Positions 1 to 34,126 of a stretch of DNA of 64,000 nucleotides are shown here, piece after piece. Origin of the DNA: Xestospongia bergquistia (lineage: Eukaryota; Porifera; Demospongiae; Haplosclerida; Petrosiidae); the NCBI GenBank assembly GCA_963965975.1, contig OZ014414.1, forward strand, positions 7,816,230-7,880,229, in the 5' to 3' direction. The notes beneath the pieces are model-generated. The model was not told the origin of the DNA. It searched no databases and was given only the letters and a program-made list of their open reading frames with translations. How positions within the stretch are numbered: the stretch's first letter is position 1; every line of letters starts with the position of its first letter. A program made the translations under genes and the position numbers.

Positions 1-3000
1 TTACATCGACGTCAGCTCCAGTTTGTATGAGAAGATCAACTACATCAACATGTCCACATGACAAGGCTACCATTAACGGAGTCAGACCACATACTAGAGG
101 TGTATTTGGATCAACTTGACACTCTATTACTTGATTCACAACAGACCCAATATCTCCTTCGTTACATGCAAATAGCAGTTCCTTCCGAATGTTAGTTAAC
201 TGTGGTAGTTGTTTTGCAAGGAAACTAATCATATTTGGATGACCTTTAAAACAAGCTTGTATGAAACCCTTCTCAATTTCATTTTGACTAGGTTGAGTTT
301 TGTGAAGGAGCATTTTAACAAGATCAATGTTACCACTACATGCAGCTAGTGTAAAAGCTGTCTGGCTGTTATTGTTTAGAATTTTGGAATCAGCTTGGAA
401 ATTTAGTAGAGTTTCTGATAACTGATTGTGTCCATAAGTGCATGCAATCATCAAACAAGTTGTTCCATGTTTGTTTTTAATGTTAAGCTCAGCCTTGCCC
501 TTGATTAATAACTCAGCAACTTTGCTATTACCAATTGTACTAGCTATCATTAGGGGAGTCCACTCATCAACAAGAACATTGACATCAGCATTTGATTGAA
601 TAAGTAATTGTATTATTTTCAGGTAGTTTTCTTTGTTGCTTGTAGAAGCAGAGCATACAGCTATATGAATTGCCCTGCCACCTTTTTGGTTAGAGATGTT
701 AGGATTTGCTCCATTTTTAAGCAGCTCTTGAACAATATCAGTGTATCCACACTTGACTGCCCACATTAATGCAGTATCTCCACTAACTTCATGCTGTAAG
801 TTAGGATTAGCTTTGGCTTGAAGTAATTCCTTCACAATTTGTAGTCGACCCATAAGACAACCAGCCATCAATGCAGTAAATCCATTAATTGATAAATTTT
901 GAGAACTATCAAGCTTTTGCAACCTGGATCTATATTTACCATCTTTATCCATGGTCTCAATATATTCCCTGATGTTGACTTTTGAGTCAACTTGGATGTT
1001 TGGATTGGCACCTTTTTGGAGTAACAATTTAACCAACTCCATTGAGTTACCAGTATCTTCAATCAGACAAGCAGACATTAGACATGTGAATCCAAATTCA
1101 TTTGTCACATTAAGATTTATGGATGGTTGTAATGATAGCAACTGTATGATCTCTAGATACTTTTCAAAGTGATCTGTGCTGTAACACTGTTGTACAGCTA
1201 TATAAATTGCCGTGAACCCATTTTGTTCAATGATATTAGGATCAGCACCATATTGCAACAACTGCTGCACAATATCTGGTGACCCTCCATCTATTGCATA
1301 CATAAGAGCTGTTTCTCCATTGACTTCACGTTTAATGTTAGGATTAGCTTTAGCCTGAAGCAATAATCGTGCAATTTCTAAATCCCCTCTATCACAAGCA
1401 TACATTAAAGCAGTAAATCCTATCAATGAATTATTTGAAGCTACAGTGCTACACTGCTGAATGTCAAGGTTAGCTTCCTTAAAGAGAAGTAATTTAACTG
1501 CCTCACTGTTACCAGTCATACTGGCAAGCATTAGACCTGTCATTCCACCTTTATCCATAACATTTATCACACTTGGCTTTGCCACTAGATCCACAATTTT
1601 GAGATGATTTCTAGATCTGGAACAAGGTCCACATAAAGAATAATGAAACGCTGAGTCACCATATATGTCACAGATAGAAGCATCAGCACCATTTTCCAAT
1701 AATTCTTGAACAATCTGAAGATTCCCCTCATTTACTGCATCCATTAAAGCTGTTTGCCCATTGATATGCAACAAGTTAGGATTTGCATTGGCTTTAAGCA
1801 GTAACTGTACTATTTCAAGATAACCATGTTGACAGGCAAGCATTAATGCAGTAAATCCATTTAAATCAGTTGCTGATGTATTATTACATTGGATGTCTGG
1901 ATTAGCACCATTTTGTAGCAACAGTCTAACTACCGAGGTCAAACAAAATTGACTAGCATTCATTAGACAAGTTAGGCCATTATTGCTCATTACGTTTAAA
2001 TCAATATTTGGATGAGATACAAGCAACTGTAGAATTTCCTCAGAACTCTTGGATTTACTTTGAACATCTTTGTCAGAACGTAGTGAATTTAAATCGATAT
2101 TTGGCATTAGTAACTGTAAAATTCCTTCACTTGAGATTCCCAAACAATTAAAAACAGCCACATGGATTGCTGTCCCACCATCTATTTTAGCAATATTAAG
2201 GTCAGCACCATTTTCTAGTAGTAGCTGTACAATCTGTATTTCTCGTCTACATATTGCTAACATCAAAGCAGTCTGACCATTATTGGTTATCTGTAAATTG
2301 GGATTAGCTTTTGCCTGAAGTAACATACATACAACTTCTAACTGACCATTCACACAAGCAAACATTAAAGCCGTATATCCATTTAGTTCATTTTGAGAAA
2401 TTATTAAAGGCTTACATTGAACATCTACATCTGCACCACCATTTAATAGTAGTGTAACTGCTGAAATCAAACCATACTGACTAGCCATCATAAGGCTGGT
2501 CATGCCCATATTGTTCATTTTGTTTAAACTTGCATTCGGTTGTAGTGTTAGTAACTGTAGAACTTCTAAGTAGTCTTTAGAGCCAGAAGAAATTGCTTTG
2601 GAAATGGTCAAATGAATTGCTGTGTTGCCATTGTTGTCAACAATTGTAGGATCAGTGCCATTTTCAAGTAACACTTGAATAATGTCTACATTTTCAGTGG
2701 CCATTAATGGTGTCTCTCCGCTTGCTTTGAATTGTAAATTAGGATTGGCTTTGGCTTGAAGAAGTATTTTAACTATGTCCAAATGATTACTAACAGTGGC
2801 AAATAGCAGTGCAGTGAATCCTGTTAATGCATTTTCAGTGATATTTGATGGATTACATTGGATATTTGGATCAGCACCATGTTCTAGAAGCAGTTTAACT
2901 GCTTCAGTTAACCCAAATTGACTAGCCCTCATTAGAGTAGTCATACCATCATTGTTCATAGCATTTTTATCCACATATGGCTGTGTTATTAGCATTTGTA

Positions 3001-6000
3001 AAGTTTCTATATAATCTTCAGAATTGCCAGCTGAAGCCACTACCGTATAAATTGCTGGATGACCATTATTGTCAACAATATTAAGATCAGCACCATTTTC
3101 CACTAGTTCTCTTATTATTGTAAAGTGGTTTTCTTTGCATGCCGCCATAAGTGCTGTACAGCCATAGTTATCTTGAAGGTTGACATCAGCTCCAGATGAC
3201 ACAAGTGTATGTACAGTAGACTGGTGACCAAGGAAACAAGCAAGAATCAACAATGATTTTCCTTCCTCGTTCAAATAATTAACATCAGCATTTTGATGGT
3301 ATAAAAGTAAATGAATTGAAATGTCATCTCCTTCTTTGACCGCTTTTGTCAATGAAGCCATTGGATTGAAATCCCCTACAAGATTACCAAACTGCATTTC
3401 CAGTACAAAATCAATAAAAGAATTCTTGCCCCTTTTAAGCATACATTTAGGAAGAGTCTGTAGATCAAAGGTGAAATTCTCATTTTGATTTTTGAGAAGA
3501 GTTTGTTTACCATCAATTAACACTTCATAACAGCCTGCAAAGTATTGATACTCATGATGTTCAATTGCCATTGTCATCATTCTGTCAACTAGAGATTTTG
3601 GAATCAGGAATATGCACACACATGCTAGTCCTTCATCCTCCATTTTATTGAGGCTTAAAAAACTGCTTGATCTGGAGAATGAGCACATTAGAAATTTTCG
3701 CAAGCTACTCATTTTCTTGTCTTTCCATTCTTTGTTAACTTTGATAACAACTTGAGCCATATCTGTTCTCACATCAAGGTGTAAAGGCAATAGTCCTGAC
3801 TTCATTGCTGATTTGAAGTGCTCAAGAGGAGTTTTGTCCTCAAATGCTTTTAGATCTGTCCTGTAATTTTTTAGCTCCTCTTGTAGTAATTCATTGCCAG
3901 AACAAATTGCAATTTGTTCTAAAATGTCAACATTCAGGATGTAGTAGTAACTTTGAAGATTAAGAAAGAGTTCTTCAACACTTTCAGTGCATTTAAAATC
4001 ATTCATATCATAGTGTGTTTGTAAGTGTTCGATGATCTCCACTACAGATATAGCTCTTGCTGATAAAGCACTTTCAAGAACCAGTTTCATATTACAAGTT
4101 AAGCTTTCAAATTTTTGCAGCAAATTTTGGAAATCTTTGATGGCATCTAGAACTTTCTTCTTTATCTCAAATAGTTCAAATATATGATATCTTCGCAATG
4201 TAGTAAGTGTTTTAAAATTGCCAGTGCCACCAAAAAATACTTCTCCTCCAGCCAGGGTAAGTTTTCCAAATGCTTCAATTGATTTTTCACCTAAACCTGC
4301 ATAAACTAAAGCTGTGAGACCTTCATTGTCTGTACTGTTTACATTAGCTCCGTGTTGAAGTAGTACATCTACTGTTCCTGTATGTCCACAAGCTGATGCA
4401 ATCATGAGGGGTGTAATACCTTTTACTAGTGTGCAATTAACATTGATATTGTATGAAGATATGTGGTTGTCAACAGATGTTTGGTTACCATCTGTACATA
4501 AGATAAAAAGTTGCAACTTTTCTGGTGGCAAGGTGGGTGGTAATTTTATTATTAAAGCAAGAATAATTCCAGAGTGACCATACCGACAAGCAGTTAGCAA
4601 AAGTGTTTCATAGTCATAACTGTTAGGGAAGGAGTCCAGTAAAGTATCAACAATCTTCCCACAATTCTGTTGTATAGCCAATGAGATGGCTGTGTCTTCA
4701 TTCTCTGAAACTATAAATGGATCAGCTCTGAATTCAAGAAGCAACTTAACTACTTCAACATGACCTCTACAACAAGCTAACATTAGAGGAGTCTCTCCAT
4801 TATCTCTTTGCTTATTAATGTCTGCTTGAGCTAGAAGTAGCTCATTAACTATGGCAATGAAATTCATTTGACTAGCTATCAATAGTGCTGTCCAGCCATT
4901 TTGGCTTTGAATATTAACATTAGCTCCAGCTGATACTAATGTATGTACAACTTCTTTGTGTCCACCTTCACTAGACAATATTAATGCTGTGCATTGACTT
5001 CCATCATCTTGGTAATCGATATTGATTTTCAATTCCAATAGAAGTTTAATTAGTTCATTATTGCCAGTTTTTGCAGCTTGTAAAAGCGATGTGTCAAAAG
5101 AAAAGTCTTCGTTCTCATTTTGTATGATGATTGGCTGGTTATCAATGTACATCTCAAATATACCAAGTAGTTCCATCAAGTCAACTTTTTCCATTGCCAT
5201 GGCAACAAGAGTATTTGAATGTGAGCGAGGCACAAGAAATCTAGCACAAATTGATCCTTCTTCAATACGAATGTGATTTATAAGTTTTCTCTTTCCAGAA
5301 AACAAGTATTCGATAAGTTTATTAAAATCATTCATTGTTTTTTGTCCCCATTTACCATTTAATTTAATAATAACTTCACAAGATGATTCCGTAGCCTCTT
5401 TCTTTGGTAGTAACGCTTCCTCTATAGCCATCTTAATATGTTGTAACTCAGCAGATGTTTCAAATTTTTTAAGTTCTTTAGCATAGTCATTAAGTTCACT
5501 TTGCACAGGACTACCAGAGAGAAATTGATCAACGATTTCAACAATAACTTCACAGTTAAGGAAACAATACTGAATTTCATTAAATAACTCATCAACATTT
5601 GTTAATTTAGTCAATCCTTTTATTTCATTGTTCTCTTCAATGAATCGTGCAATGTTTACCAATTTAACAGTACCAGCTTCAACTAAGCCAACAATGTTTT
5701 CTCTAACATTTAGTACTAACGATGCAAAGGTTTCGTGAAGTTGTTGAATATTTATTACCAGTTGGTTTTTTGAACTAAGTCTTATTTCTTTAGTGATGTA
5801 CTTTTGACTCACGCCAAGGTATTTCTGTACTAAAATGACTAATCTGTTGTCTCTTAGCTTTTTCAGTGCATCAATTACATCCTCCCAAGAAGCATTTGGA
5901 TAAACTTTTAACCATTCTGAAAAGAGAGCTAACTTTTGCCGGTCCGTACGCTTATAATCATTCTCAATAGTTTCAATGATGTCATCAGTCATATTGGGTA

Positions 6001-7006
6001 GAAACATGCCAAAATTCTGCCATTTGGTTAATGAACATAGCAGCTCTGCTAGTTCAGGTATAGTTGGTGTGAAGATTGTGTGGTCTGGGGAAGTGTGATA
6101 CACAACAGTCTCAATTGTATCTGATTCAATCTCAACATATTCTATAGGTAGCGATAAATCAAGCTCCTTTTCAAGTTCTTCTTTCCATTCTACTGCTAGA
6201 CTCTTAACAACTTCCTGACCTTGAATAGTTTTAAGTTCAGATGAAAGGCAGTTTAAAAATGATTGGCATTGTTCCACTAACCCTGATACATCCTTCGACA
6301 GCTTCATTCTAATTTGAAAATCACTGGCAATTGTTTCAAAACTAGGTGAATTTTTAACAGTTTCTGAGATCAATTGTTTTGAAAACAATACTTGGGCAAT
6401 TTCTGTTGGACAATCACTTAACATCTGTGTCATTAAGGAACAATGCTTTTCAAGTACTCTCTCCAATATTTTGCAAACACTGCTGACATTGACATTTACT
6501 AAAACAGACTCTAAAAAGGAGATAAGTATATTACCAGTAATATATATATATATAATATACTCTCTCTTAAATAAGCTCACCTTCAATAGTAGCAGTAAGA
6601 TGTGATTGGGTAGTGATATCAACACATTTTTGTAGTCTCAAGGTTGCTGTATTTACACATTTGACAAGAGCAACTACAAATTGTTTCCATGATGCTTCCT
6701 CTGTTTGAAGCCATTTTGAAATTAGAACGCTCTTTTGACTCTCAATATCTGTTTTCTCCTTGATTTGGTCAATTTCAATTTCTGTTATGCCTGACAGGCA
6801 ACAAGCTAAGGATTCCCAGTCAATCAATGGTTCAAGTAACTCAAGTATCTCTGACAGAGTTGGTTTTTCAAGCAAATAGTGAGACTTTACTTCTTTGAGG
6901 CATTGTTCTAACAATTCATGACTTAAAAGAGCATAGTCTTCTTGAATCTTAAGTAATTTCTGTAATTTTACAGGGACAGTCTCTTTGACAGCAACTTCTA
7001 TAAAAA

Positions 7007-7040
<34 letters not shown>

Positions 7041-9183
7041 TTGTAAAACAAACTTATTTATTACCAGTTAAGGTTTGATTATATGGCTGATCAGCTACAG
7101 TAACATATTGTACAACATCATGTACTAGATCAGTTTCATTTGCCTTCAGTAGTGCAATCACCAACTCTTTCCATGATGGCTGAGGCATTTGTACCCACTT
7201 TGATATCAGACCACTTTTTTGACTACTAATATCTTGTTCTTGGTTTAATTGTTCAATAAATGATTCTGTTATACCAGGTAAATGACGAGCAAGTGTCTTC
7301 CAGTCGACTAAAGGTTCCAGTAACTTCAGCAACTCTGACTCAGTGGGTCGATCTGTAAAATTGATAACAAAATTACATATAAAGACTGTCACTGTACTGT
7401 CACTGTATGTGTTCTGTGATAACTTTGCTGTATTATGTGTAAAGGCTGTCACTATATATATTCTGTGGTAGTTTTGATGAGTATTATGTGTAAAGACTGT
7501 CATTGTATGTGTTCTGTGGTGACTCTGCTGTGTATTATGTGTGAGGGATGTCACTGTGGAATTTATATAAGGAAATCTCAATAATACTAATATACTATAC
7601 AAATTTCCCTTTTTAAGTATGAAAACTGTGTAGTTCCATAGAAATTAGTAATCAAAACTGTACATGTTGTTAATACATTTCAATGTATATTAATGGTGGG
7701 TGCACATAACCCAAGTGACATTAAGTAGTAAGTGACCATTAAGTAGTAGTGTATATATATATATAAGCAACATAAAATATTAGTATGAGGTACATGCACA
7801 ACATGATACACCGCAAATATGGTGGTATGTCATTTTAACATATCAATTAGTTATTCCAGATTCATATCACTCATTAGTTTTGTAGTTATAAATATGATAC
7901 CTAAACAGACCTACAATATACATACACATATAATAGTTTTCTCATATAATTAGTTCATTAGTTGTTTAGACTAATAACTCTAATTGTTTATAACACTGTA
8001 CAATTAAGCATCCATAACATAAATCCTAATTAATTTGATTCCAATTAATTAAGGCTATATACTAGATTGTTAATTTATGCTAGTATATTAATTGTATAAA
8101 CATTAATCTGATGGTGTTTCTAAGTACGTAAGCACTTGCATAAGCTAGTTTTAGTGTGTCACAAGTCTATGTACACACGTCTAGTAAGCCCGTGTTTCAA
8201 AACTCAGAATATATACTCAACAACGTTAACTTGCTAATATACTTATGTACAAAACTCACAAGTCTATGTACACACATGTCTAGTAAGCCTGTGTTTCAAA
8301 ACTCAGAATATATACTCAACAACGTTAACCTGCTAATATACTTATGTACAAAACTCACATGTACAGTTTTGATTACTAATTTCTATGGAACTACACAGTT
8401 TTAATTTCATAAGGGAAATTTGTATAGTATATTAGTATTATTGAGATTTCCTTATATAAATTCCACAGTGATATCCCTTACACATAATTGTTTATAACAT
8501 TGTACAGTTAAGCATCCATAACAAAAATCCTAATTATTCCAATTAATTAAGGCTATATACTAGATTGTTAATTTATGCTAGTATATTAATTGTATAAACA
8601 TTAATCTGATGGTGTTTCTAAGTACGTAAGCACTTGCATATAGCTAGTTTTAGTGTGTCACAAGTCTATGTACACACATGTCTAGTAAGCCCGTGTTTTA
8701 AAACTCAGAATATATACTCAACAACGTTAACCTGCTAATATACTTATGTACAAAACTCACATAACAAATTATGATATTAAATAAATATGTGACTTTTATC
8801 AATGTAGTCATCAAAACAGCATATGTTGTTAATATTTTTCAATGTATATTAATTCAAGTGACTACTAAGCAGTTAAAACAACCAATTAACAATATCATAT
8901 ATAATGCAAACATAATATGCAACATCAAATATTAGTATGAGCTCCATAGTAACATCCTTCTTATTCTGACACTATTTTTACCTAATAATGATTTTGGTCC
9001 TGGATTCAGCTCTACATCTCCTGATAATACGAGAAGAAATGAGATGAAAACAGCTAAAGTAAAGGTCAACCCCGATGTTGACAGCAAGTTTGCACCACAG
9101 CTCTTGCTCAAATTCTTCGTTTGAGTTGGTTGGTGACAACTCCACAACCCAATACGAGCTCTCCACTGACAAAGATCAATCAT
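1..9183 (-). CDS. 2A-tagged triple Death-domain / ankyrin-repeat protein (3' end beyond window)
   Basis: Four exons read: 8982-9183, 7065-7352, 6581-6997 and 1-6510, all introns phase 1 with GT-AG ends; about 2472 residues before the left edge with no stop. Residues 1-63 carry a hydrophobic stretch ending in DVELNPGP. Death-fold domains lie at about residues 68-150, 211-282 and 449-536, each with a W..LA/F..L core and a downstream SW; a helical, possibly CARD-like segment lies between the second and third. Two copies of an unrecognised domain follow (about 529-776 and 1076-1326), separated by ankyrin repeats, then a long ankyrin array. The Death/ankyrin make-up suggests an intracellular immune or cell-death adaptor, like an NLR without a NACHT domain; that role is inferred. 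The 1.6-kb first intron is unusually long for this window, so linking exon 1 to the rest is the weakest join, though phase fits. The start at 9183 is the first ATG of the open frame; an upstream exon is possible. Confidence 0.8.
500..2960 (-). repeat. Higher-order repeat of four ankyrin repeats (~440-530 bp unit, five units)
   Basis: The C-terminal ankyrin array has a period of four repeats. Each unit runs: GMTxLM..AS plus a longer linker; GFTALM..A ending AKANPNLQ; GETALM ending ENGADP; and an expanded G.TAIH repeat ending LQLL..QP...LN. Units begin near 2960, 2520, 1995, 1560 and 1110 (minus strand). This implies growth by duplication of a four-repeat block. Confidence 0.75.
3440..4190 (-). 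other. Unrecognised ~245-residue domain, copy 2
   Basis: Same order as copy 1: KFESLTCNM, VEELFLNLQ, LKNYRTDLKAFED, VVIKVNKEWKDKKM, ACVCIFLIPKS, YEVLIDGKQTL, FTFD, then ankyrin repeats again. Each copy is therefore followed by its own ankyrin block, so the protein looks like a duplicated [domain + ankyrin] module. Confidence 0.6.
5090..5830 (-). other. Unrecognised ~245-residue domain, copy 1
   Basis: Within the large exon, directly after the third Death domain. It starts with a helical segment containing L..F.SL..N, continues through VDELFNEIQ, LNDYAKELKKFET, VIIKLNGKWGQKTM and CARFLVPRS, and ends at MYIDNQPI followed by FSFD, where ankyrin repeats begin. The same order of motifs recurs at 3440-4190. 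I do not recognise the family. It looks mixed helical then sheet-like. Confidence 0.6.
7380..7560. repeat. ~55-bp tandem repeat, about three degenerate copies
   Basis: A unit containing ACTGTCA..GTATGTGTTCTGTG and TATTATGTGTAAAG recurs about three times. It lies in the first intron of the 2A/Death/ankyrin gene, just upstream of the exon 2 acceptor. It keeps a minus-strand frame open by chance and is not treated as coding. Confidence 0.7.
7540..8485. repeat. Inverted-repeat structure in intron 1
   Basis: About 125 bp at 7540-7668 reappear as a near-exact reverse complement at 8358-8485 (shared features: CACTGTGGAATTTATATAAG, the GAAATTTGTATAGTATATTAG stretch, and the AAAACTGTACATG end). The loop of ~690 bp holds direct repeats described separately. 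It could be a folded-back transposon relic. No coding content is seen. Confidence 0.75.
7980..8765. repeat. Direct duplication (~280-380 bp units) in intron 1
   Basis: The segment starting TTGTTTATAACACTGTACA at 7985-8360 is repeated at 8488-8765. The first copy also has an internal ~110-bp duplication (8158-8260 and 8260-8360) around CAAGTCTATGTACACAC. The + strand ORF in this stretch is formed by these repeats and does not look like a gene. Confidence 0.75.
8995..9018 (-). other. 2A-type ribosome-skipping motif (DVELNPGP)
   Basis: The minus strand reads Asp-Val-Glu-Leu-Asn-Pro-Gly-Pro, an exact match to the 2A consensus D-(V/I)-E-x-N-P-G-P. In known 2A peptides the ribosome fails to join the final Gly and Pro (here residues 62 and 63) and continues, giving two products. 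A hydrophobic, signal-like stretch (LTFTLAVFISFLLVLSG) precedes it directly. N-terminal 2A sequences doubling as signal peptides are known from sea urchin NLR genes; the same arrangement is seen here on a Death/ankyrin protein. An alternative is that the exon is a relic of a non-LTR retrotransposon, some of which also carry 2A sequences. Confidence 0.85.
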
Positions 9184-9329
9184 TGTTAGCGAGAAACAAT
9201 AGGAAAATAGCGTTTACTATAATATAATAGACTCTTTTATTTGTAAGTTTATGGGGTGTGTAACTTGCCTATGATGACATCATGTCGTTACTGCAATTTA
9301 ATACTGTAATTTAATATTAGATGTTGTAA

Positions 9330-9550
9330 TACTGGTATTGTAGGTAATACTAGGATTGTAGGTAATATTGGTATTGTGGGTAATACTGTTATTGTGGGTA
9401 ATAGTGGTATTGTGAGTAATACTAGGATTGTGGTATTGTGAGTAATACTAGGATTGTAGGTAATACTGGTATTGTGGGTAATACTGGTATTGTAGATAAT
9501 ATTGGTAGTGTAGGTAATACTGGTATTGTAAGTAATATTGGTATTGTAAG
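9330..9550. repeat. Minisatellite, ~17-18-bp unit
   Basis: Imperfect tandem copies of GGTATTGTGGGTAATACT, about a dozen, lie 150-370 bp upstream of the predicted start of the 2A/Death/ankyrin gene. Variants alternate GGTATTG and AGGATTG. Confidence 0.85.
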
Positions 9551-10660
9551 TTACACTAAGAAGGACCCAGTTTATGATCCAAAAGTTGCTCTGCCCCTAA
9601 CAATCCTGATAGTCTAATGTGTATTCTGCAGTTTTCCTGGTTTTCCCCCACTTAGCAATACATCTTGTTCTGAAACTATTGTAGGAACATTTTATAAGCA
9701 ACGAATATGAACCTTTGGTGGAGAAACTAACAGGTTCTTACAAGTATGTTACAAACAAATTAATAAACAAAATTAAGTTCAATCAAATTAAATTAAAAGA
9801 TGCATACAAATAAATCTAGAAAAAAACAAAGTAAACAAAACAATGAATATAAGCAAATAAATATTCAAGTTCAAAGTTCATAAATTCTTTTGAAATCTAC
9901 TTTGTAATATAATAAGACACTCTAATGTTCTTTTTACTCTGTAAGAATTAAAAATGAAGTTAACCAAAATACATCAAACATTTACTGCCATTCAAATTAT
10001 ATGAAATTAAAAGAACATGTACATGTACAAGTTTATTAGAGGATAGAAGTATGTACTCATTTACTGACAGGTCTACTACATCCTCCTGCCATAAATGAAT
10101 ATATGGTATGTTAATGAACATAGGCTATGAGGTGTGTGTATATATGTGTGTGTGAGTGTATCAAAAAGTACAAATGTCCTGTTTTATAAACATATATAAG
10201 CTTTATTAAATGGATCATTGCTAGAATATAAAAGTGTGCTAAATACAGAGGTAGATGAGTAGTACAGAAAAGTAATAAAATTTCCCGTTAAATAGAAAAC
10301 AAAAAATCTACTAATAAATGGTTGTTTACATAATTATATAGCAGCTATAAAAGTATTAATTTAAAAAAAGTTTTCCAAATATTTACATCAAATTTCTTAC
10401 AGTTATTAGATCACAACATTTTCAGAATACACACTAATTTCTTATGCAACCAATAATGGACTAGTTATACTAGCTATATATACAAATCCTATTGGTTGTC
10501 ATCATACATGTAGGTATATGATAAGATAACATCATGATATTTAAGATATTTAAGGATACTGCAAGTTGGGAGGCTTTTCAAAATAATATACACAAAATAA
10601 TATAATGAAGGGAGAGTACATTTTATGGTCAATAGTAATAGAATTGATATACTGACATAC
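9551..10660. other. Intergenic, no gene seen
   Basis: AT-rich sequence with short AT runs and no convincing ORF or splice-bounded exon. The terminal exon of the AlaX gene should lie here, because its last recognised exon ends in a GT donor at 10660, but I could not place it. Confidence 0.5.
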
Positions 10661-18617: not shown

Positions 18618-19967
18618 TTATGAAGATGTTGTGATGGTAGCTAGCCATGGTTTAACAAAAGTAGTAGTCACACTTACTCTAAAGTAGAGGGCATCATCTT
18701 TCAAATATTGACAATTTAGAAAGGAGGAGAAAGAAAGATCAAAATGAGAAATAAACTTTGAATAACCTCGTCCTTTTCCATATCGTTTTCCCACTACTTT
18801 CTGTGTGGACGATAGAGGTGTAGTTTCATTCAACGTAGTGACACGCTTCTTGTGGTTTTCATCTTCTAGTTGGTTAAGAAGCTCCATAGTGATCTCTCCT
18901 TGGAATGGCCACTCCAGTGCATCATTATACTTTCCTGACATTAAACACACATACAAAGAAACATGAGTATCTTCACCATCACCACTGCCATTAGGATAAA
19001 TGTGTAAACACATTTTATAGCCTCCAGGAGAAGTATAGAAGCCAGGGCTTCGCCAACTAATGTTCTTATCTTTATGATCTTTAAATTCAGTAAACTTAAT
19101 AACTCTACATGATGTATAGTTAGATGAACCAATACGTTCAATAAGGTGTGATACTGCGGCTTGTAATAGTTCTATTGATTCTTTATTGTCAGCATTTTCT
19201 TCTTGAAGATCTTCAATTTCGTTTTGTGCTTCTTTAGTCATTTGTACTGACATTTCAAGGTGTTTCTTCATGTCCTGTTCTTCATGTTTTTCTTGGTCTT
19301 CTCGTTTCATCTTTACATTACATCCAATATTATTATATTGACATGATATGACTTGTTTAGGACAGATATTATAATGGTCCTCCATAAGATGACGTTTTGT
19401 GACTTCATTACATCCTCCATTATTACAGATAATAGGATAATTAAGGCACTTCTCAATATGATTACCAAAAACCTCCTCAAGTGTATCCACTTCTTTGCAA
19501 TATTGACATTTGACTTGACGTTTTAAACATTCATTATCAAGATGATGTTGAAGTATTTGACGTTGGAGTTGTTCACCACACTCGTTGCTACAGTCTACCA
19601 GCTGGTAAAGACAGACTTTACAATGATCTTCAATATCTTTTAGCTTACCCATCCATTGACAAATAATGGCATCATTGGATTCTTTCTTGTTAGTACAGTA
19701 TACTTGTAGAGTATTTATTTCTAGGTTAGCTCTACGATCATTGAAGTAATTGTTCGTAAGATCAAGACGACAGATAGGACAAATAAACTGTTGACCTTTA
19801 GACTTTAACTCCTCAAGACAACTCTTACAGAAGACATTACCACAACAGCTAACTTGTTGAGGTGTATGAGCAACAAAGGTACAAATATGACATATATATT
19901 TTGTAGGAGGGTCACCATCAACAAATCTATAGTTATAACCACCACTTTCAATAATGTTAGAGGCCAT
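18618..19967 (-). CDS. TRAF-family protein (RING, TRAF zinc fingers, coiled coil, MATH)
   Basis: Intronless coding region of 449 residues. The longer frame starts at 20015, but an acceptor-like TTTTTATATACATATAG lies just before the ATG at 19967, giving a natural start (MASNIIESGG) after a probable 5' UTR intron. Domains in order: RING-type C..C...C..C...CPIC in the first ~70 residues; several TRAF-type Cys/His fingers (CEKP-free, patterns such as CQYCKEV and CPKQVISCQY); a Glu-rich coiled coil with EDLQEENADNKES; and a C-terminal MATH/TRAF-C domain (SPGFYTSPGGYKMCLHIYPN). TRAFs couple receptors to ubiquitin signalling and NF-kappaB. Which vertebrate TRAF it is closest to cannot be said from sequence alone. 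Confidence 0.9.
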   Translation of the reverse strand: MASNIIESGGYNYRFVDGDPPTKYICHICTFVAHTPQQVSCCGNVFCKSCLEELKSKGQQFICPICRLDLTNNYFNDRRANLEINTLQVYCTNKKESNDAIICQWMGKLKDIEDHCKVCLYQLVDCSNECGEQLQRQILQHHLDNECLKRQVKCQYCKEVDTLEEVFGNHIEKCLNYPIICNNGGCNEVTKRHLMEDHYNICPKQVISCQYNNIGCNVKMKREDQEKHEEQDMKKHLEMSVQMTKEAQNEIEDLQEENADNKESIELLQAAVSHLIERIGSSNYTSCRVIKFTEFKDHKDKNISWRSPGFYTSPGGYKMCLHIYPNGSGDGEDTHVSLYVCLMSGKYNDALEWPFQGEITMELLNQLEDENHKKRVTTLNETTPLSSTQKVVGKRYGKGRGYSKFISHFDLSFSSFLNCQYLKDDALYFRVSVTTTFVKPWLATITTSS

Positions 19968-20194
19968 TAGATCTATATGTATATAAAAAGAGAGATAGTA
20001 TGATATTTGATACAATATTTCAATTAACTTAACTTACATTTACTTTATAAATCCTAGTCTATGACGGCTAAGGAGAGGATGACATTAAAACATGTGACTT
20101 TACCAAAATGCTACTATCACAACTATTGTAGGTCATGTGAGCTCTTATGAAAGCTAGTGTAGTTAATAACATCTAGTTATGAAATATTGTATGA

Positions 20195-22992: not shown

Positions 22993-23280
22993 TTGTATCT
23001 TCCTACTCTATTTATAATGTAGACATAATTATAATATACATACAATAATAATATTATATAAAACTACAGAAATTAAGAAATGTGCTAATAACCCAAATGC
23101 CAAAACTACTAGTATTAATTATATATCTTGAAAAAATAAAGTTGTGCCACCGTCACTAAATTGTCACAAATTTGCGAAGGAGGCAAAATAACGTTATCAC
23201 CTAGCCTCGTACCCAAAACGAAAGCCTGGGATGAGGCTAATGTATCGCCTCGACGCCATCTTCTTGAGCAGGCATATAAT

Positions 23281-24040
23281 ATGGCACATGCCTACCACTT
23301 TCACCCTTATTGTTACAGATCGTTTACATACAATAGCGAATACAACGAAAAAGACTCAGAAAGGGACACAGAGACACCAGACAAACGTACCATACTTATC
23401 TTAGGTAAAGTTGGTGTTGGTAAAGCAACTATTGCTAATCATATAATGGAAAAAGAAGTCTTCGAAGTAAAAGGACCAGTTGAGAGTGTTACACGTCCCC
23501 CAAGCCAGCTACATTTTCGCGGGTTGCCCGTGAGAAAGTACACAGCCATAAAAGTGTTTATTATTGATACAATTGCACAATCTGAGAAAAAGAGTCATGA
23601 ATATGGCTCTGTATATGAAGCAATAAAAATACCAGAAAAGGTAAACTTGATCCTTTTTGTCATTCAGATAGGTTTTCCATGGCTTACCAAAGGAGAAAGA
23701 GACCAACTGCACAATTTCATGACGCAAAATGCTAAATTATCCAAAATATCAGCTTTGATTATAACATTTTGTGAGGTGCTGGATCAAGCAGCTCGAGAAG
23801 GAGTTGTTACAGACTTTAGAAAAGATAAATGTGTACAAAAAAATTGCAGATTTCATGAAAAAGGGCATATTTGCAGTTGGCTTTCCTAATCCTAAGGCAA
23901 TGGATGAAACAATGTATCAGCTGTTGTTAGAAAATATAAGAGAGGACGAAAAGAAATTATACGAGCTAGTAGATACATGTGATTACTCATATAAGCTTTC
24001 TGTGAATCAAAGTAGCTCACCCAATGCAAATGTACTTTAA
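23281..24040 (+). pseudogene. AIG1-like protein, unit 1 right copy (B1), frameshifted
   Basis: ATG at 23281 begins the same protein as the intact 30765-31523 copy. Near 23838 the A-run is altered (seven A where the sister has AAGAAA), shifting the frame; the original frame resumes as 23771-24040 with the normal C-terminus. Walker A-like GKVGVGKAT is present. The frame is also open upstream of the ATG from 23161 but has no ATG there. Confidence 0.8.
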
Positions 24041-24855: not shown

Positions 24856-26349
24856 TCAAACATACTTGACAACTCTAACATATGGACCATACCGATCTGG
24901 AGATCGACGATCACGTCTTGGATATCTGGGAGTCTCGGGGACAATATCTTGGTTCCTGTTCTGACCAGGGGGCTCAGGTGGAGTAATAATTTCTTCACGA
25001 GGTGTACCCATGGGAGTGGTATCACCTAAAGGAATATCCAAATCTGAAGGGTCTGATTCTGTAGACTGTGGAGTCTCTGTTTGACTGTCCATCTTCAGCT
25101 CACGCAAGAGATCAACATGTCTTTTCCATAATAAATGATCAGCTGTTTCGACTAGATATGTTAGAGGTCCTAGTCTTTCAATGACAACAGCAGGAACCCA
25201 ATCAGGACCAGGACGCATATTACGAGCCATGACTGATTGTCCTACAAAGAATTCTCGTTCCTGAGCTCTTCGATCATGCTGAGCCTTCTGCTGAGCTTGT
25301 TTTGCTAAGACTCCAGAGGGATAGTCTGGACGGATTAAATCTAGTCTAGTTCGAATCTGACGATGCAAAAACAATGATGAAGGAGATACACCAGTAGTAG
25401 CATGTGGAGTACTACGGTAGTTTAACAGAAAATTTGAGAGACAATGTTGAAGAGATAGTCCACTGTTAACAGTTGATTTAAGTGCCATCTTGAGAGACTG
25501 AACAAATTGTTCTGCCAACCCATTTGAAGCTGGGTGATAGGGAGCACAATGAATGTGTTTAATCCCATTGGATTTCAGAAAGTGGGAGAAATCTTCTGAT
25601 ACAAATTGTGGACCATTGTCTGTAACAACTTGCTCCGGTAGTCCGAATCTACCAAAAATGACACGCAAAATTTCAATGGTTTTTGTGGCTGTAGTTTCCT
25701 TCATAACAAACACTTCTGGCCACTTAGAATGAGCATCAACAGCAATAGAGAACATTGAACCTTGGAAGGGACCAGCAAAATCCAAATGTATTCTCTTCCA
25801 GGGCTGATTTGGCCATGTCCATGGCTGTACTGGAGCAACAGCTGGAGAATGTTTTACAGCTTGACAGGAAGTACAGCTTTTGACCACTTCCTCTATTGCT
25901 TTATCAAGACCAGGCCACCAGATGTAGCTTCTTGCAACAGATTTCATATGACTAATGCCTGGGTGGTCTTTATGTAGCTCTTCCAACAATTTCTTTTGGA
26001 GTTTCTTTGGAACAATGACTCGTATGCCCCATAATAGACATTCTCCCTCGACTGTTAATTCAAACCTACGGGACCAATAAGGACGTAAAGTAGGTGTACA
26101 ATTTTGTGGCCATCCTGATCGAACATAACTTACAACCTTACTTAAAACAGGATCTGTTCTAGTAGCTGTTCTAAGTTGTTGTGAAGTGACAGGAAGGCTC
26201 TCTAGTTGTGATACATTGAAGATGGCCGGTTCATCAGACGTGATAGGGGCTCCCTGTGATTTCAAAGGTAATCTGGACAAACTGTCCGCGTTAGCATGAG
26301 CTTCTGTTGGGCGATACTCTATGTTGTAGTTGTATGCTGACAAGATCAA
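24856..26349 (-). pseudogene. Retrotransposon integrase fragment
   Basis: 497 residues. The HHCC zinc-binding domain (HPGISHMK..., CTSCQ) is followed by the D,D-35-E core (LDFAGPF, VTDNGPQF, NGLAEQFV) and a C-terminal GPLTYLVE region. It is the longest intact frame of the element. Confidence 0.9.
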
Positions 26350-26394
26350 TGACCAATGCTGTAGACGAGCAGCAGCTAAGGAAGGAGTTCCTGT

Positions 26395-26784
26395 CTATGC
26401 TCCAAAAATTGTTGTCAGCGGCTTGTGGTCAGTCACTAAAGTAAATGTCCGCCCACACAGATACATATGGAACTTCTTTACACCAAAAATGAGTGCCAGA
26501 GCTTCTTTCTCTATTTGAGAGTAGTTCTGTTCACTCTTAGACAATGTACGTGATGCAAAGGCAATAGGTTGTTCCTGTCCATCCTCCATCACATGAGATA
26601 TTACAGCTCCGAGGCCGTAAGGAGAAGCATCAGCTGCTAACCTAAGAGGTAGACTAGGATCATAATGGGTAACAAAAGTGGAAGATACCAGAACATCCTT
26701 GATGTGTTGGAAGGCTTTTGTACAGTCTTTAGTCCATTTCCAACGAGCATCTTTACACAGTAAACTGTTCAATGGCCAAGTCAA
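26395..26784 (-). pseudogene. Retrotransposon RNase H fragment
   Basis: 129 residues in the same frame as RT and integrase, with LAADASPYGLGAV and TDHKPL motifs of Ty3/gypsy RNase H. Separated from the integrase frame by one in-frame stop at 26395. Confidence 0.85.
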
Positions 26785-26925
26785 ACTAGCTCGATTTGGG
26801 ATAAATTGACCATAGTAGTTAAGGAGTCCTAGAAATGCTCAAAGTTCCTGTGCATTCATAGGTGGAGGTGCATCAACAATAGCTTACAAATTGCTATCTG
26901 TTGTATGAAGTTCTTTTGAGTCCAC

Positions 26926-27846
26926 TCAGTGACCCAAATATTCAACACTGTCCTCCATAAAGCAACACTTGTCTAACTTGAGACGTACTCCATGATTCTG
27001 AAGTCTCCGTAGTACTTCTGACAAATTCTTTAGTAGGTGTTCCTTATCCAAATTACCTGTAATCAGAATATCATCTAAATAACATGTTACCTTCTCCATT
27101 CCTTGGAGGATTTGGTCCATGACACGTTGAAATAGGGCTGGAGCAGAAGCTATACCAAATGGAAGTCTGGTATAACGGTAGAGACCACGATGAGTGTTCA
27201 CAACAACATACTTCCCGGACTCTTCATCCAAGATCAGTTGATTGTAAGCATGAGACAAATCAAGTGTAGTGAACCTCTTGCCACCAGCGAGAGTAGCAAA
27301 AATATCCCCTGGTCGAGGTAGTGGGTACTTATCCACATCTAGCACTGGATTAACAGTGACTTTATAGTCTCCGCATACTCTGATACTACCATCTCTTTTG
27401 GGAACAGTCACAATCGGTGCTGCCCAATCGCTGTGAGTAACTTTTTCCAGAACACCATCTGCTTCTAATTGGTCGAGTGCTTCCTCTACGCGACTCTTCA
27501 AGGCGAAAGGAACAGGTCGAACCCTATGGAACCGAGGTTTGGCATCTTTGACAACAAACAATGTTGCTTTAAAGGGGTAAATAGTTCCTAACCCGCCGGT
27601 GAAGACATCTTGGAAATTGTCTAGGACAGCCTGTACTGCCCTAGTTGAAGCTCCTTGTGATACAACAGCAATTGATGACCAGTCTAAATGAATGACCTGT
27701 AACCAGTCTCTGCCCATGAGGCAAGGACCATCACCAGAAACAACTACCAGTTCCAGGTCAAATGGGCCTTGTGACAGATAACACACTTTAACAGCCAGTG
27801 TTCCCAATACCTTTATGCATTCTCCTGTATACGTTTTCAGTAGCAA
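26926..27846 (-). pseudogene. Retrotransposon reverse transcriptase fragment
   Basis: 306 residues: end of protease region, then RT palm and fingers with the catalytic YLDD box (CYLDDILITG). In-frame stops follow at about 26926, 26882 and 26838 before the RNase H frame resumes. Confidence 0.9.
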
Positions 27847-28202
27847 TGAAGAAGGCTTAAAAGCTTAACTCCTGAGAACGACTGTTGAAAAATCTTCTCT
27901 GATAAGATAGATACAGCTGCCCCAGTGTCTATATCCAAGGTCAGCTTCCTACCAGAGACCTCTAGATCTACTCGAATAGGTTTAACAGAGGGCTTGCCTA
28001 TGGTAAGTGCATGCATTGCTAACTCACCATCAGTGTTAGCAACCCTTAAGTCTTCATTCACCACATTTCCACTTCTATAATCTGGAGTTTTCTTTGTTGA
28101 ACCTCTTCTACAGACAGGTGAGATGTGGCCAATTTTACCACAAAGCCGACACTTGGCTTGCCGTACTTGTATGTCCGTCCCTTGTGGTCGTGGCGCCCAC
28201 AT
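27837..28202 (-). pseudogene. Retrotransposon zinc knuckle and aspartic protease fragment
   Basis: Same frame as gag, directly after its stop. CxxCxxxxHxxxxC zinc knuckle (CRLCGKIGHISPVC) followed by the protease active-site DTGA. The frame shifts at its end before the RT frame begins. Confidence 0.85.
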
Positions 28203-28859
28203 CTATGACAAGAAGATCCGCCCGATAGGCCGGATTTTTGGCCCGACGACGGCGGCGGCGGCTCCTCCAATATTGAGGACTTTGCATGAGGTGCCTGCAA
28301 TGCTGCTTGGGTCTTTGAATCCCTTTGTCTCTGATGCAGCAGCTTCAATAGTCCGAGCAAGCTCCAGAGCTCGAGCAATATTGAGATCAGGTTCGGTTAA
28401 CAATCTCTTCTGCATACTCTCAGCTCTCAACCCACACACAAAGCGGTCGCGAAGGGCTTGATCGAGAAAATGTTCAAATTCACAAGTGATAGCTAGACGT
28501 CTTAAGTCTGCTAGAAAATCATGTACTGACTCACCATCTGCTTGGTTGCGCTGATAGAAACGGAATCGCTCCGCGATCAATAGAGGTTTAGGTCGGAAGT
28601 GAGCCAGCAACACAGCCTTGAGATCCTCATAAGACTTTTCCTGTGGCAAGGTAGGTGCTGTGAGACTCTTAATCAGAGCGTAGTTCCTGCTCCCTGCAAC
28701 AGTTAAGAACACTGAGACTTGCTTGTCAGGTCCTATATCGTTTGCGGTGAAGAAAAGGTCCACCCGCTCAAGGTAAGCCACGACGTTATCTGACTCTGGG
28801 TCAAATGCACCCAACTGTCCGAACACTACAGGTTTGTAGCCGTGCTGAGGTTGAGCCAT
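28203..28859 (-). pseudogene. Retrotransposon gag (capsid) fragment
   Basis: 218 residues from ATG to an in-frame stop, with the retrotransposon gag pattern of helices (LLAHFRPKPLLIAERFRFY). The zinc-knuckle region continues in a neighbouring frame (28058-28378) and then the original one, showing a frameshift near 28170. Confidence 0.85.
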
Positions 28860-28885
28860 CTTAGTATCCTACCCTCGTCGCCAGT

Positions 28886-29657: not shown

Positions 29658-30380
29658 TTAAAGAAGCCAACATTTTTCCCAAAATGATTCAAGCAACAAT
29701 TCATTGGCAAGATACTTTTTCTCACAACCAATAATAAGTTTCTTCAACACAGCTTCATCTCTTGCCATTGTATCTTCAAGAGCTTGTCTAAACGCTATAG
29801 ATACCTTATCCATCTGTGGAAATCCCACTGTATAAATGCCCTTGCCCATGAAATCAGCAATATGTTTAGTAATTGGGTTTTCACGAAAATCTTTTATTAT
29901 TTCTTCCCTACTTTCTTCATTATCAGTTTCACAATGGGTGATGATTAAAGCCGATATACTTTGAATATCTCTACCAAACCGACTACTTATAAAATTAAAA
30001 GTATCTCTTTCTTCTGGAGTGTACCTCCCTTTTCTAAACAGGAACAGTACAATATTGATACCTTCACGTACATGTTGATTGACATAAGATTTTATAGCCT
30101 TCATGCATTTTTTGTTTGAAAGCTGACTAGTATCAAACAATCCCACAGTATCGACGACTTTAACTTTGAGACATACGTTTCCCGGAATCTTTACCTGAGC
30201 TTCTCCGTGATCAATATCACGGGTAGTGCTTTCTACAGAGCTCCTAACAGGGAATCTGTTACTTGTAAGAATGTGGTTGCCAAGAGTCGATTTGCCTGTT
30301 CCTGTCTTTCCTACCACAAGTACGTTTCGATGTTTGACTTCTTCTGAGACCCACGATACGTCATTCAGTCCAACAGCCAT
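29658..30380 (-). CDS. AIG1/GIMAP-family GTPase, unit 2 left copy (A2), intact
   Basis: Single-exon 240-residue protein. G1 P-loop GKTGTGKST at ~25-33, a G3-like DTVGLFD near 77, the AIG1 conserved box region (NIVLFLFRKGRYTPEERDTF), and a G4-like ITHCE. AIG1/GIMAP GTPases act in immune and cell-survival responses and often oligomerise on membranes. No transmembrane segment is seen. Its start lies 384 bp from that of the divergent B2 gene, with a kappaB palindrome between them. It is the only intact A copy; A1 and A3 carry frameshifts. Confidence 0.9.
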   Translation of the reverse strand: MAVGLNDVSWVSEEVKHRNVLVVGKTGTGKSTLGNHILTSNRFPVRSSVESTTRDIDHGEAQVKIPGNVCLKVKVVDTVGLFDTSQLSNKKCMKAIKSYVNQHVREGINIVLFLFRKGRYTPEERDTFNFISSRFGRDIQSISALIITHCETDNEESREEIIKDFRENPITKHIADFMGKGIYTVGFPQMDKVSIAFRQALEDTMARDEAVLKKLIIGCEKKYLANELLLESFWEKCWLL

Positions 30381-30466
30381 AAGTAAGATCTTGCTGTTTT
30401 ATAATATTAGATACTGGGACGTGTTTACGTAAAAATAATAACACATACGCTACTATAGTGGGACAA

Positions 30467-30477: not shown

Positions 30478-30764
30478 TTGTATCTTCCTACTCTATTTAT
30501 AATGTAGACATAATTATAATTACATACAATAATAATATTATATAAAACTACAGAAATTAAGAAATGTGCTAATAACCCAAATGCCAAAACTACTAGTATT
30601 AATTATATATCTTGAAAAAATAAAGTTGTGCCACCGTCACTAAATTGTCACAAATTTGCGTAGGCGGCAAAATAACATTATCACCTAGCCTCGTACCCAA
30701 AACGAAAGCCTGGGATGAGGCTAATGTATCGCCTCGACGCCATCTTCTTGAGCAGGCATATAAT

Positions 30765-31523
30765 ATGGCACATGCCTACCACTTTCACCCTTATTGTTAC
30801 AGATCGCTTACACACAATAGCGAATACAACAAAAAAGACTCAGAAAGGGACACAGAGACACCAGACAAACGTACCATACTTATCTTAGGTAAGGTTGGTG
30901 TTGGTAAAGCAACTATTGCTAATCATATAATGGAAAAAGAAGTCTTCGAAGTAAAAGGACCAGTTGAGAGTGTTACACGTCCCCCAAACCAGCTACGTTT
31001 TCACGAGTTGCCCGTGAGAAAGTACACAGCCATAAAAGTGTTTATTATTGATACAATTGCACAATCTGAGAAAAAGAGTCATGAATATGGCTCTGTATAT
31101 GAAGCAATAAAAATACCAGAAAAGGTAAACTTGATCCTTTTTGTCATTCAGAAAGGTTTTCCATGGCTTACCAAAGGAGAAAGAGACCAACTGCACAATT
31201 TCATGATACAAAATGCTAAATTATCCAAAATATCAGCTTTGATTATAACATTTTGTGAGGTGCTGGATCAAGCAGCTCGAGAAGAAGTTGTTACAGACTT
31301 TAGAAAAGATAAATGTGTACAAGAAATTGCAGATTTCATGAAAAAGGGCATACTTGCAGTCGGCTTTCCTAATCCTAAGGCAATGGATGAAACAATGTAT
31401 CAGCTGTTGTTAGAAAATATAAGAGAGGACGAGAAGAAGTTATACGAGCTAGTAGATACATGTGATTACTCATATAAGCTTTCTGTGAATCAAGGTAGCT
31501 CACCCAAATGTACTTTAATCTAA
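30765..31523 (+). CDS. AIG1-like protein with altered GTPase motifs, unit 2 right copy (B2), intact
   Basis: 252 residues from the ATG at 30765 (the frame is open further upstream but only from a non-ATG codon). P-loop GKVGVGKAT at ~44-52. Where family members have DTxG the sequence has DTIA, losing the G3 glycine. The conserved-box region NLILFVIQKGFPWLTKGERDQL follows, and ALIITFCE occupies the G4 place. It shares 3' features with A2 (IADFM.KGI..VGFP), so A and B are ancient paralogues. The lost glycine suggests weak or no hydrolysis; this is an inference. Confidence 0.85.
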   Translation: MAHAYHFHPYCYRSLTHNSEYNKKDSERDTETPDKRTILILGKVGVGKATIANHIMEKEVFEVKGPVESVTRPPNQLRFHELPVRKYTAIKVFIIDTIAQSEKKSHEYGSVYEAIKIPEKVNLILFVIQKGFPWLTKGERDQLHNFMIQNAKLSKISALIITFCEVLDQAAREEVVTDFRKDKCVQEIADFMKKGILAVGFPNPKAMDETMYQLLLENIREDEKKLYELVDTCDYSYKLSVNQGSSPKCTLI

Positions 31524-33095: not shown

Positions 33096-33367
33096 TTGTA
33101 TCTTCCCTACTCTATTTATAATGTAGACATAATTATAATATACATACATATATAAAACTACAGAAATTAAGAAATGTGCTAATAACCCAAATGCCAAAAC
33201 TACTAGTATTATTAATTATAATATTATATCTTGAAAAAATAAAGTTGTGCCACCGTCACAAATTTACGTAGGCGGCAAAATAACGTTATCACCTAGCCTC
33301 GTACCCAAAACGAAAGCCTGGGGATGAGGCTAATGTATCGCCTCGACGGCCATCTTAGGCATATAAT

Positions 33368-34126
33368 ATGGCACATGCCTACTACTTTGACCCTTATTGT
33401 TACAGATCGTTTACATACAATAGCGAATACAACGAAAAAGACTCAGAAAGGGACACAGAGACACCAGACAAACGTACCATACTTATCTTAGGTAAGGTTG
33501 GTGTTGGTAAAGCAACTATTGCTAATCATATAATGGAAAAAGAAGTCTTCGAAGTAAAAGGACCAGTTGAGAGTGTTACACGTCCCCCAAACCAGCTACG
33601 TTTTCACGAGTTGCCCGTGAGAAAGTACACAGCCATAAAAGTGTTTATTATTGATACAATTGCACAATCTGAGAAAAAGAGTCATGAATATGGCTCTGTA
33701 TATGAATCAATAAAAATACCAGAAAAGGTAAACTTGATCCTTTTTGTCATTCAGAAAGGTTTTCCATGGCTTACCAAAGGAGAAAGAGACCAACTGCACA
33801 ATTTCATGATGCAAAATGCTAAATTATCCAAAATATCAGCTTTGATTATAACATTTTGTGAGGTGCTGGATCAAGCAGCTCGAGAAGAAGTTGTTACAGA
33901 CTTTAGAAAAGATAAATGTGTACAAGAAATTGCAGATTTCATGAAAAAGGGCATACTTGCAGTCGGCTTTCCTAATCCTAAGACAATGGATGAAACAATG
34001 TATCAGCTGTTGTTAGAAAATATAAGAGAGGACGAGAAGAAATTATATGAGCTAGTAGATACATGTGATAACTCATATAAGCTTTCTGTGAATCAAGGTA
34101 ACTTACAAAAGTGTACTTTAATCTAA
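33368..34126 (+). CDS. AIG1-like protein with altered GTPase motifs, unit 3 right copy (B3), intact
   Basis: 252 residues, ~96% identical by eye to B2, with the same GKVGVGKAT P-loop and DTIA in place of DTxG. The frame upstream of the ATG is broken in this unit, supporting the ATG at 33368 as the real start for all B genes. Homology to the other units ends shortly after the stop. Its A partner is a pseudogene, so B3 is an orphan of the pair. Confidence 0.85.
   Translation: MAHAYYFDPYCYRSFTYNSEYNEKDSERDTETPDKRTILILGKVGVGKATIANHIMEKEVFEVKGPVESVTRPPNQLRFHELPVRKYTAIKVFIIDTIAQSEKKSHEYGSVYESIKIPEKVNLILFVIQKGFPWLTKGERDQLHNFMMQNAKLSKISALIITFCEVLDQAAREEVVTDFRKDKCVQEIADFMKKGILAVGFPNPKTMDETMYQLLLENIREDEKKLYELVDTCDNSYKLSVNQGNLQKCTLI

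Follow-up and report, generated by a model that had tools for sequence, protein, structure and literature searches.

What does a short exon carrying a 2A (StopGo) core do at the head of a gene for Death domains and ankyrin repeats? The window, the whole 64,000-nucleotide stretch analysed here (Xestospongia bergquistia, contig OZ014414.1, positions 7,816,230 to 7,880,229), has such an exon on its reverse strand, and to our knowledge ribosome skipping is rare outside viruses and jumping genes. We consider it likely that the exon is a translated StopGo leader and one copy of a phase-1 first-exon module found in front of numerous immune-type genes. What can be read directly from the sequence is the exon and its family, the conservation of core and phase, and the selection acting on the leader; the leader is real and conserved, and its StopGo is probably active.

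The leader exon and the gene behind it

The predicted features, all on the reverse strand, are as follows.

8982..9183, reverse strand: leader exon 1, 67 codons plus one base, ending in phase 1 at the donor GT 8981-8980
9136..9183, reverse strand: N-terminal block (N-block) MIDLCQWRARIGLWSC, 16 residues, family consensus MIDxxQWRxSIGLWxC
9073..9135, reverse strand: variable linker of the leader, near-neutral (dN/dS 0.87)
9022..9072, reverse strand: hydrophobic stretch, residues 38-54, including the L-rich 2A context LLVLSG
8995..9021, reverse strand: 2A/StopGo core GDVELNPG/P, with the skip predicted between 8998 and 8997
7353..8981, reverse strand: intron 1, GT...AG, phase 1, acceptor AG 7354-7353 (predicted sites)
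7065..7352, reverse strand: exon 2, Death domain 1 (Pfam), phase 1-1
6581..6997, reverse strand: exon 3, Death domain 2 (Pfam), phase 1-1
1..6510, reverse strand: exon 4, Death domain 3, a conserved module and a giant ankyrin array, passing the window edge

Read from 9183 to 8982, the leader exon translates as MIDLCQWRARIGLWSCHQPTQTKNLSKSCGANLLSTSGLTFTLAVFISFLLVLSGDVELNPGPKSLL plus one base, followed by GT; its 3' end is LSGDVELNPGP-KSLL/g with GTAAAA on the donor side. An earlier note on this DNA, made from the letters alone, had described an exact 2A core after a signal-like hydrophobic stretch, and this is present as GDVELNPGP at 9021-8995, behind an L-rich stretch. Within it DVELNPGP (9018-8995) conforms to the StopGo core definition (D/G/C/N)(V/I)ExNPGP, and the hexapeptide upstream, LLVLSG, is LLLLSG-like with G at p11 as judged by eye. 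The hydrophobic stretch has a mean Kyte-Doolittle value of 2.28 and lies eight residues from the C-terminal Gly of the predicted leader product. The same note had used exon phase to link this exon with three Death domains and a giant ankyrin array, and the gene model bears this out: all three predicted introns are phase 1, exon 2 continues the leader in phase as DRPTESELLKLLEP, and Pfam gives three significant Death stretches and ankyrin families in model residues 1-933, the part scanned, in which there is no NACHT match. The model is stop-free to the window edge (2472 aa) and through the 2 kb past it, and the open frame of the last exon amounts to 3925 aa.

A short tandem array of ACCAATATTACC-like units was seen by eye just upstream of the leader exon, at about 9310-9560, and there is no match to Rfam families in the window. 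Elsewhere in the window four ORFs match AIG1/GIMAP-type GTPases (23140-23889, 29658-30398, 30624-31523 and 33359-34126), with an LTR-type retroelement lying between them (24856-28868; gag, reverse transcriptase, RNase H and integrase frames), and a 471-aa ORF at 18618-20033 carries TRAF zinc finger and MATH domains.

A genome-wide family of leaders

The leader exon is a member of a genome-wide family. The same first exon, which the earlier note had suggested looking for in related genes, does recur: a search of the genome with the exon peptide returned 156 matches, mostly full length and at about 45-63% identity, and the matches listed give 149 leader-like places, half of an already counted place being omitted. 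The motif D[VI]ExNPGP is kept at 140 of the 149, or at 137 of 146 without three LINE-type places (C4:8.63, 8.82 and 8.83 Mb; judged from L049 and an identical motif string). As DNA patterns, DVExNPGP occurs at 66 and DIExNPGP at 95 places in the 146-Mb genome, 161 in total, and the reversed patterns at none. Twenty-one motif places fall outside the leader matches, and the 12 that were read (L006, L007 and L050-L059) consist of LINE-type copies, incomplete or decayed leaders and unclear cases. The window copy has at most 66.5% DNA identity to any of 118 other labelled leaders and reads as an old single copy.

Five of the nine leader places lacking the motif are broken by stops or frame shifts and one holds nothing recognisable, while the remaining three are open with one core change, two of them D to G (GGVELNPGP, in L040 and L042) and one N to K (LKPGP, in L041). 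L040 and L042 may still be active, because G in the D position fits the StopGo core as passages of PMC12846837 define it. Two public protein predictions, P0054 and P0091, likewise carry core variants in an open frame (GNVELNPGP, NPGL).

The N-block, searched for as a DNA pattern, occurs at 123 places, with none in the control. Among the 100 of these listed, a motif lies within 400 nt of 91 and is in frame at 90, the pairing having used 124 of the 161 motif places (the remainder are LINE-type, isolated or situated beyond the final listed N-block place). Seven of the nine N-block places without a motif are truncated or broken and two are open single-substitution copies, and no intact N-block leader without a 2A-like core was found among those 100. 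Conversely, nine of 131 leaders fetched fail a strict N-block reading (six have W7 or R8 changed and in three the N-terminal part is lost or interrupted), and GD[VI]ELNPGP is kept in all nine. The core thus survives changes to the N-block, a pattern that favours skipping as the main function and counts somewhat against the N-terminus being essential. The splice phase is also shared: the first GT after the core is at +7, in phase 1, in 112 of 122 leaders, and a permissive acceptor scan found a phase-1 acceptor with an open continuation at 13 of 13 loci tried, with leader introns of only 53-57 nt in the five shortest.

The same leader is predicted to stand ahead of about ninety defence-type genes of the genome. 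At 47 of the 149 leader places a NACHT match follows on the same strand within 12 kb and ahead of any further leader, and at none is there one on the opposite strand; the Death-ankyrin module lies behind 32, and a GTPase-like domain with a DTGGQ motif, named by eye and silent in Pfam, behind 12. The other 58 places, including all nine without the motif, have no assigned gene type. All 95 NACHT places were compared with the leaders, as were 50 of 142 ankyrin-module and 31 of 158 GTPase matches chosen near leaders, and since the latter two lists are partial, only the NACHT count (47 against 0) has an unbiased control; one architecture-marker query was inexact in its first residues, most of its matches starting at residue 6 or later. 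The earlier note had set the window gene apart as an architecture without NACHT. The absence stands for residues 1-933, but the separateness does not, as the same leader heads NACHT, Death-ankyrin and GTPase genes alike.

Counted from the NACHT side, 48 of the 95 matches lie within 8 kb of a listed leader or motif place and the other 47 do not. Of these 47, 29 form a cluster at G000:C2:8.83-9.15 Mb, which we regard as a second NLR family with another kind of start. The locus of L038 on C8 gives a weak ZU5 match, below the cut-off. Two leaders, L101 (C14:655379) and L033 (C14:956479), share 99.1% DNA identity, and the nearest marker behind one is the GTPase and behind the other the ankyrin module; the remainder of the gene may have been exchanged recently. 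Retroelement-like ORFs were seen by eye on the opposite strand within about 1.5 kb of leaders L002 and L010.

A profile of the leader finds 526 proteins at E<=0.001 in public protein predictions, and 116 of the 120 listed contain D[VI]ExNPGP. Twenty of these 120 are at least 95% identical, in their best local match, to leaders of the genome and so probably come from the same species. P0001 is an NLR with the leader that is 60-68% identical to its eight best genome matches, which points to another species, and P0003 matches the genome only at its C-terminal end (E<=1e-6). The 12 proteins P0002-P0013 are relatives absent from the genome; in the six of them that were examined the leader has the usual two ends, with a repetitive stretch of roughly 250-330 residues made of GQKPVALSN-like units between them, and the predicted released peptide of this type exceeds 300 residues. 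Scans of IMG/VR and GTDB contigs with the leader alignment gave 55 and 57 pattern stretches, among which no relative was confirmed. A search for a silicatein-like pattern found nothing.

Selection, the proposed working of the leader and its alternatives

The 131 leader exons yielded 129 that were parsed and 122 unique sequences for dN/dS; a strict parse, which required WR close to the N-terminus and a terminal [NK]PGP, had dropped nine of the 131; seven of these were restored, and the two left out are interrupted by a stop in their N-terminal half. In the 122-leader set dN/dS is 0.21 for the hydrophobic stretch, 0.24 for the N-block, 0.87 for the linker and 0.09 for the core, this last being biased downward because leaders were mostly picked by the motif (three of 131 were not) and the parse demanded [NK]PGP, so that the 140 of 149 places keeping the motif is the less conditioned figure. 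A stricter set of 116 leaders, with ranges from 40 resamplings, gives 0.09 (0.07-0.12) for the core under the same conditioning, 0.18-0.21 for the hydrophobic stretch (0.18 in its first half), 0.23 (0.20-0.26) for the N-block and 0.86 (0.75-0.94) for the linker. The long repeat middles found in other proteins fit this near-neutral linker, in that the two ends matter and the distance between them does not.

E58 never varies among the 122 leaders, position 56 holds D in 120 and position 60 holds N in 121, and the three leaders that differ are copies added for lacking the motif; W7 is present in 118, R8 in 119 and W14 in 121. Invariance of the final P-G-P, and of W7-R8 in the stricter set, is uninformative because the parsing required it. 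Compared with the 121 other unique leaders, the window copy has pN 0.032 and pS 0.843 in the core and pN 0.685 and pS 0.827 in the linker. It keeps its core residues at near-saturated synonymous divergence, the silent sites having turned over. Selection on the leader is mosaic, and the 2A residues are its most constrained part.

If the core is active, a ribosome at NPG/P would release a nascent leader of 62 residues (residues 1-62) and then continue, and the Death/ankyrin protein would be made free, presumably in the cytosol, starting Pro-Lys-Ser at Pro63. In all 122 leaders measured the most hydrophobic 17-residue segment ends 3-12 residues before the C-terminal Gly and is preceded by 35-54 residues (median 47), including the conserved 16-residue N-block. 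At release this stretch would span positions some 8-25 residues away from the peptidyl transferase centre and so remain within the exit tunnel, which is long enough to enclose it; SRP could thus not have bound a skipped leader. Such a leader would emerge as a small protein of its own, ending in a hydrophobic tail, and, if it enters a membrane at all, would insert afterwards in the manner of a tail-anchored protein. In the unskipped minority the hydrophobic segment would be internal and could attach the protein to a membrane. The N-block is under selection of its own, which suggests that the released peptide does something and is functional, not a spent signal. We tentatively offer the scenario that StopGo here creates a tail-anchored micro-protein, so that NLR, Death-ankyrin and GTPase receptors would each be made one-to-one with a common membrane-tail peptide bearing the WRxSIG block, which would serve them all as partner, sensor or guard, the receptor itself being cytosolic. 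If so, some of the NLRs of early-branching animals that seem to have an N-terminal transmembrane segment would be StopGo products that have gone unrecognised. Passages of PMC12846837 state that full StopGo activity can require more than 30 aa of native sequence, and of PMC2978324 that certain translocated upstream sequences inhibit 2A.

An active 2A is also compatible with dual targeting as in sea urchin NLRs, in which skipping is deliberately partial, the unskipped fraction goes to the ER or membrane, and one gene thereby yields a cytosolic and a membrane or secreted receptor. This is possible, if doubtful. It has a measured precedent in SpNLR2A6, for which passages of PMC4981915 report about 80% recoding, a P3A mutant directed mainly to the Golgi and a fused minority that is membrane-attached, and the hydrophobic stretch is longer than the six-residue StopGo context and conserved in its first half. 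Set against it are the long N-terminal parts described above, the conserved N-block, which is needless for targeting, and the flank charges, which give no clear orientation (the N flank is more positive than the C flank in 76 of 122 leaders); Death and ankyrin domains would moreover have no obvious use in the ER lumen. The hydrophobic stretch of a cleavable signal peptide is not known to follow so long an N-terminal part. The earlier note's likening of the leader to a signal of the sea urchin type is not supported, given the 35-54 residues ahead of the stretch here and the 26 aa at the N-terminus in passages of PMC4981915. That the core no longer skips, and that the leader is simply the N-terminal anchor of membrane-bound receptors, is improbable. 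Passages of PMC12909245 and PMC5094078 do propose, on the strength of predicted transmembrane segments, that sponges and sea anemones have membrane-bound NLRs, although those of sea anemones have three to five such segments, unlike the single stretch of the leader; moreover, the 2A residues are constrained beyond the need of an anchor, and the window copy has retained all of them despite its near-saturated silent sites.

Two other explanations would detach the exon from the gene. Intron 1 is long (1.6 kb), has repeated stretches as seen by eye and rests on predicted splice sites, so the exon might be foreign to a gene that starts elsewhere, the intron never being spliced; we think this very unlikely, as phase and sites are consistent and paralogous loci have the same arrangement with short introns. 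The exon might instead be a stray piece of a 2A-bearing non-LTR retrotransposon, an origin that the earlier note had itself raised against its reading and that now seems barely credible. The genome does hold 2A-bearing LINE-like copies (L006, L007, L049, L053, L054 and L059), with PHD-like sequence after the 2A in L006 (Pfam, below cut-off) and, by eye, in L049, L053 and L059, and RT-like sequence by eye in L054. These copies lack the MIDxxQWRxSIGLW block, whereas the window exon ends at a phase-1 donor and continues in phase into Death exons, leader copies sit in gene arrays, and the NACHT matches behind them keep to one strand. Such an origin was rejected for the window exon, since the leader ends at its donor and joins Death exons with no continuous RT; the RT in the window (26926-27864) is about 18 kb from the exon and lies in a group with gag, RNase H and integrase frames.

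Returning to the reading as an active StopGo leader, about 137 cellular copies under selection constitute a first-exon module common to several receptor architectures, and the family raises the question of what the conserved leader peptide does. If the leader is active, N-terminal membrane segments of invertebrate immune receptors will need another reading by annotators. The natural core variants (G for D in L040 and L042, K for N in L041) provide tests of how skipping efficiency partitions receptor pools.

Comparison with known StopGo systems

A search of titles and abstract openings found no literature on sponge or cellular 2A beyond the sea urchin NLRs; Rao et al. 2025, which reportedly treats eukaryotic and viral 2A sequences and lies outside the literature covered, may already hold part of the family. 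In passages of a 2026 study (PMC12846837) StopGo in cells is called rare and absent in mammals, with the sea urchin proteins cited as a likely example of useful partial separation; the passages of PMC5890393, PMC5009743 and PMC9646362 that contain the terms do not bear on cellular 2A.

The leader resembles the L-rich motif 2/6 class of viral StopGo, as presented in passages of PMC12846837, in its core octapeptide and LLLLSG-like upstream hexapeptide, but it is cellular, spliced and N-terminal and has no confirmed relative in IMG/VR. The 2A non-LTR retrotransposons of the same genome share the L-rich stretch and GD(V/I)ExNPGP, but theirs is followed by PHD-like and RT-like sequence, and neither an N-block nor a splice into Death exons was seen in them. 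Tail-anchored membrane proteins are similar in that a single hydrophobic stretch would lie 3-12 residues from the C-terminus after skipping, although the C-terminus of the leader would come from skipping and not from a stop codon, and the likeness is one of predicted geometry, with the hydrophobic segment within about 30 residues of that C-terminus in the 122 leaders measured.

The closest comparison is with the NLRs of Strongylocentrotus purpuratus (Roulston et al. 2016, PMC4981915), which likewise have a D(V/I)ExNPGP core after an N-terminal hydrophobic stretch on innate-immune receptors; passages of that paper describe a 2A-like sequence of 26 aa at the N-terminus in 14 of 87 NLR entries. 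That build, of about 26 aa with the stretch at the extreme N-terminus, is found in none of the 122 leaders measured here, which instead have 62-78 residues to the last Pro, a conserved N-block and a separate phase-1 exon. Such leaders stand at about 137 places, in front of genes of the NACHT, Death-ankyrin and GTPase types and of unassigned ones, and the window gene itself is of the Death/ankyrin kind, without NACHT in the 933 residues scanned. The sponge leader, as predicted, is thus both wider in its gene family than the sea urchin case and different in build.
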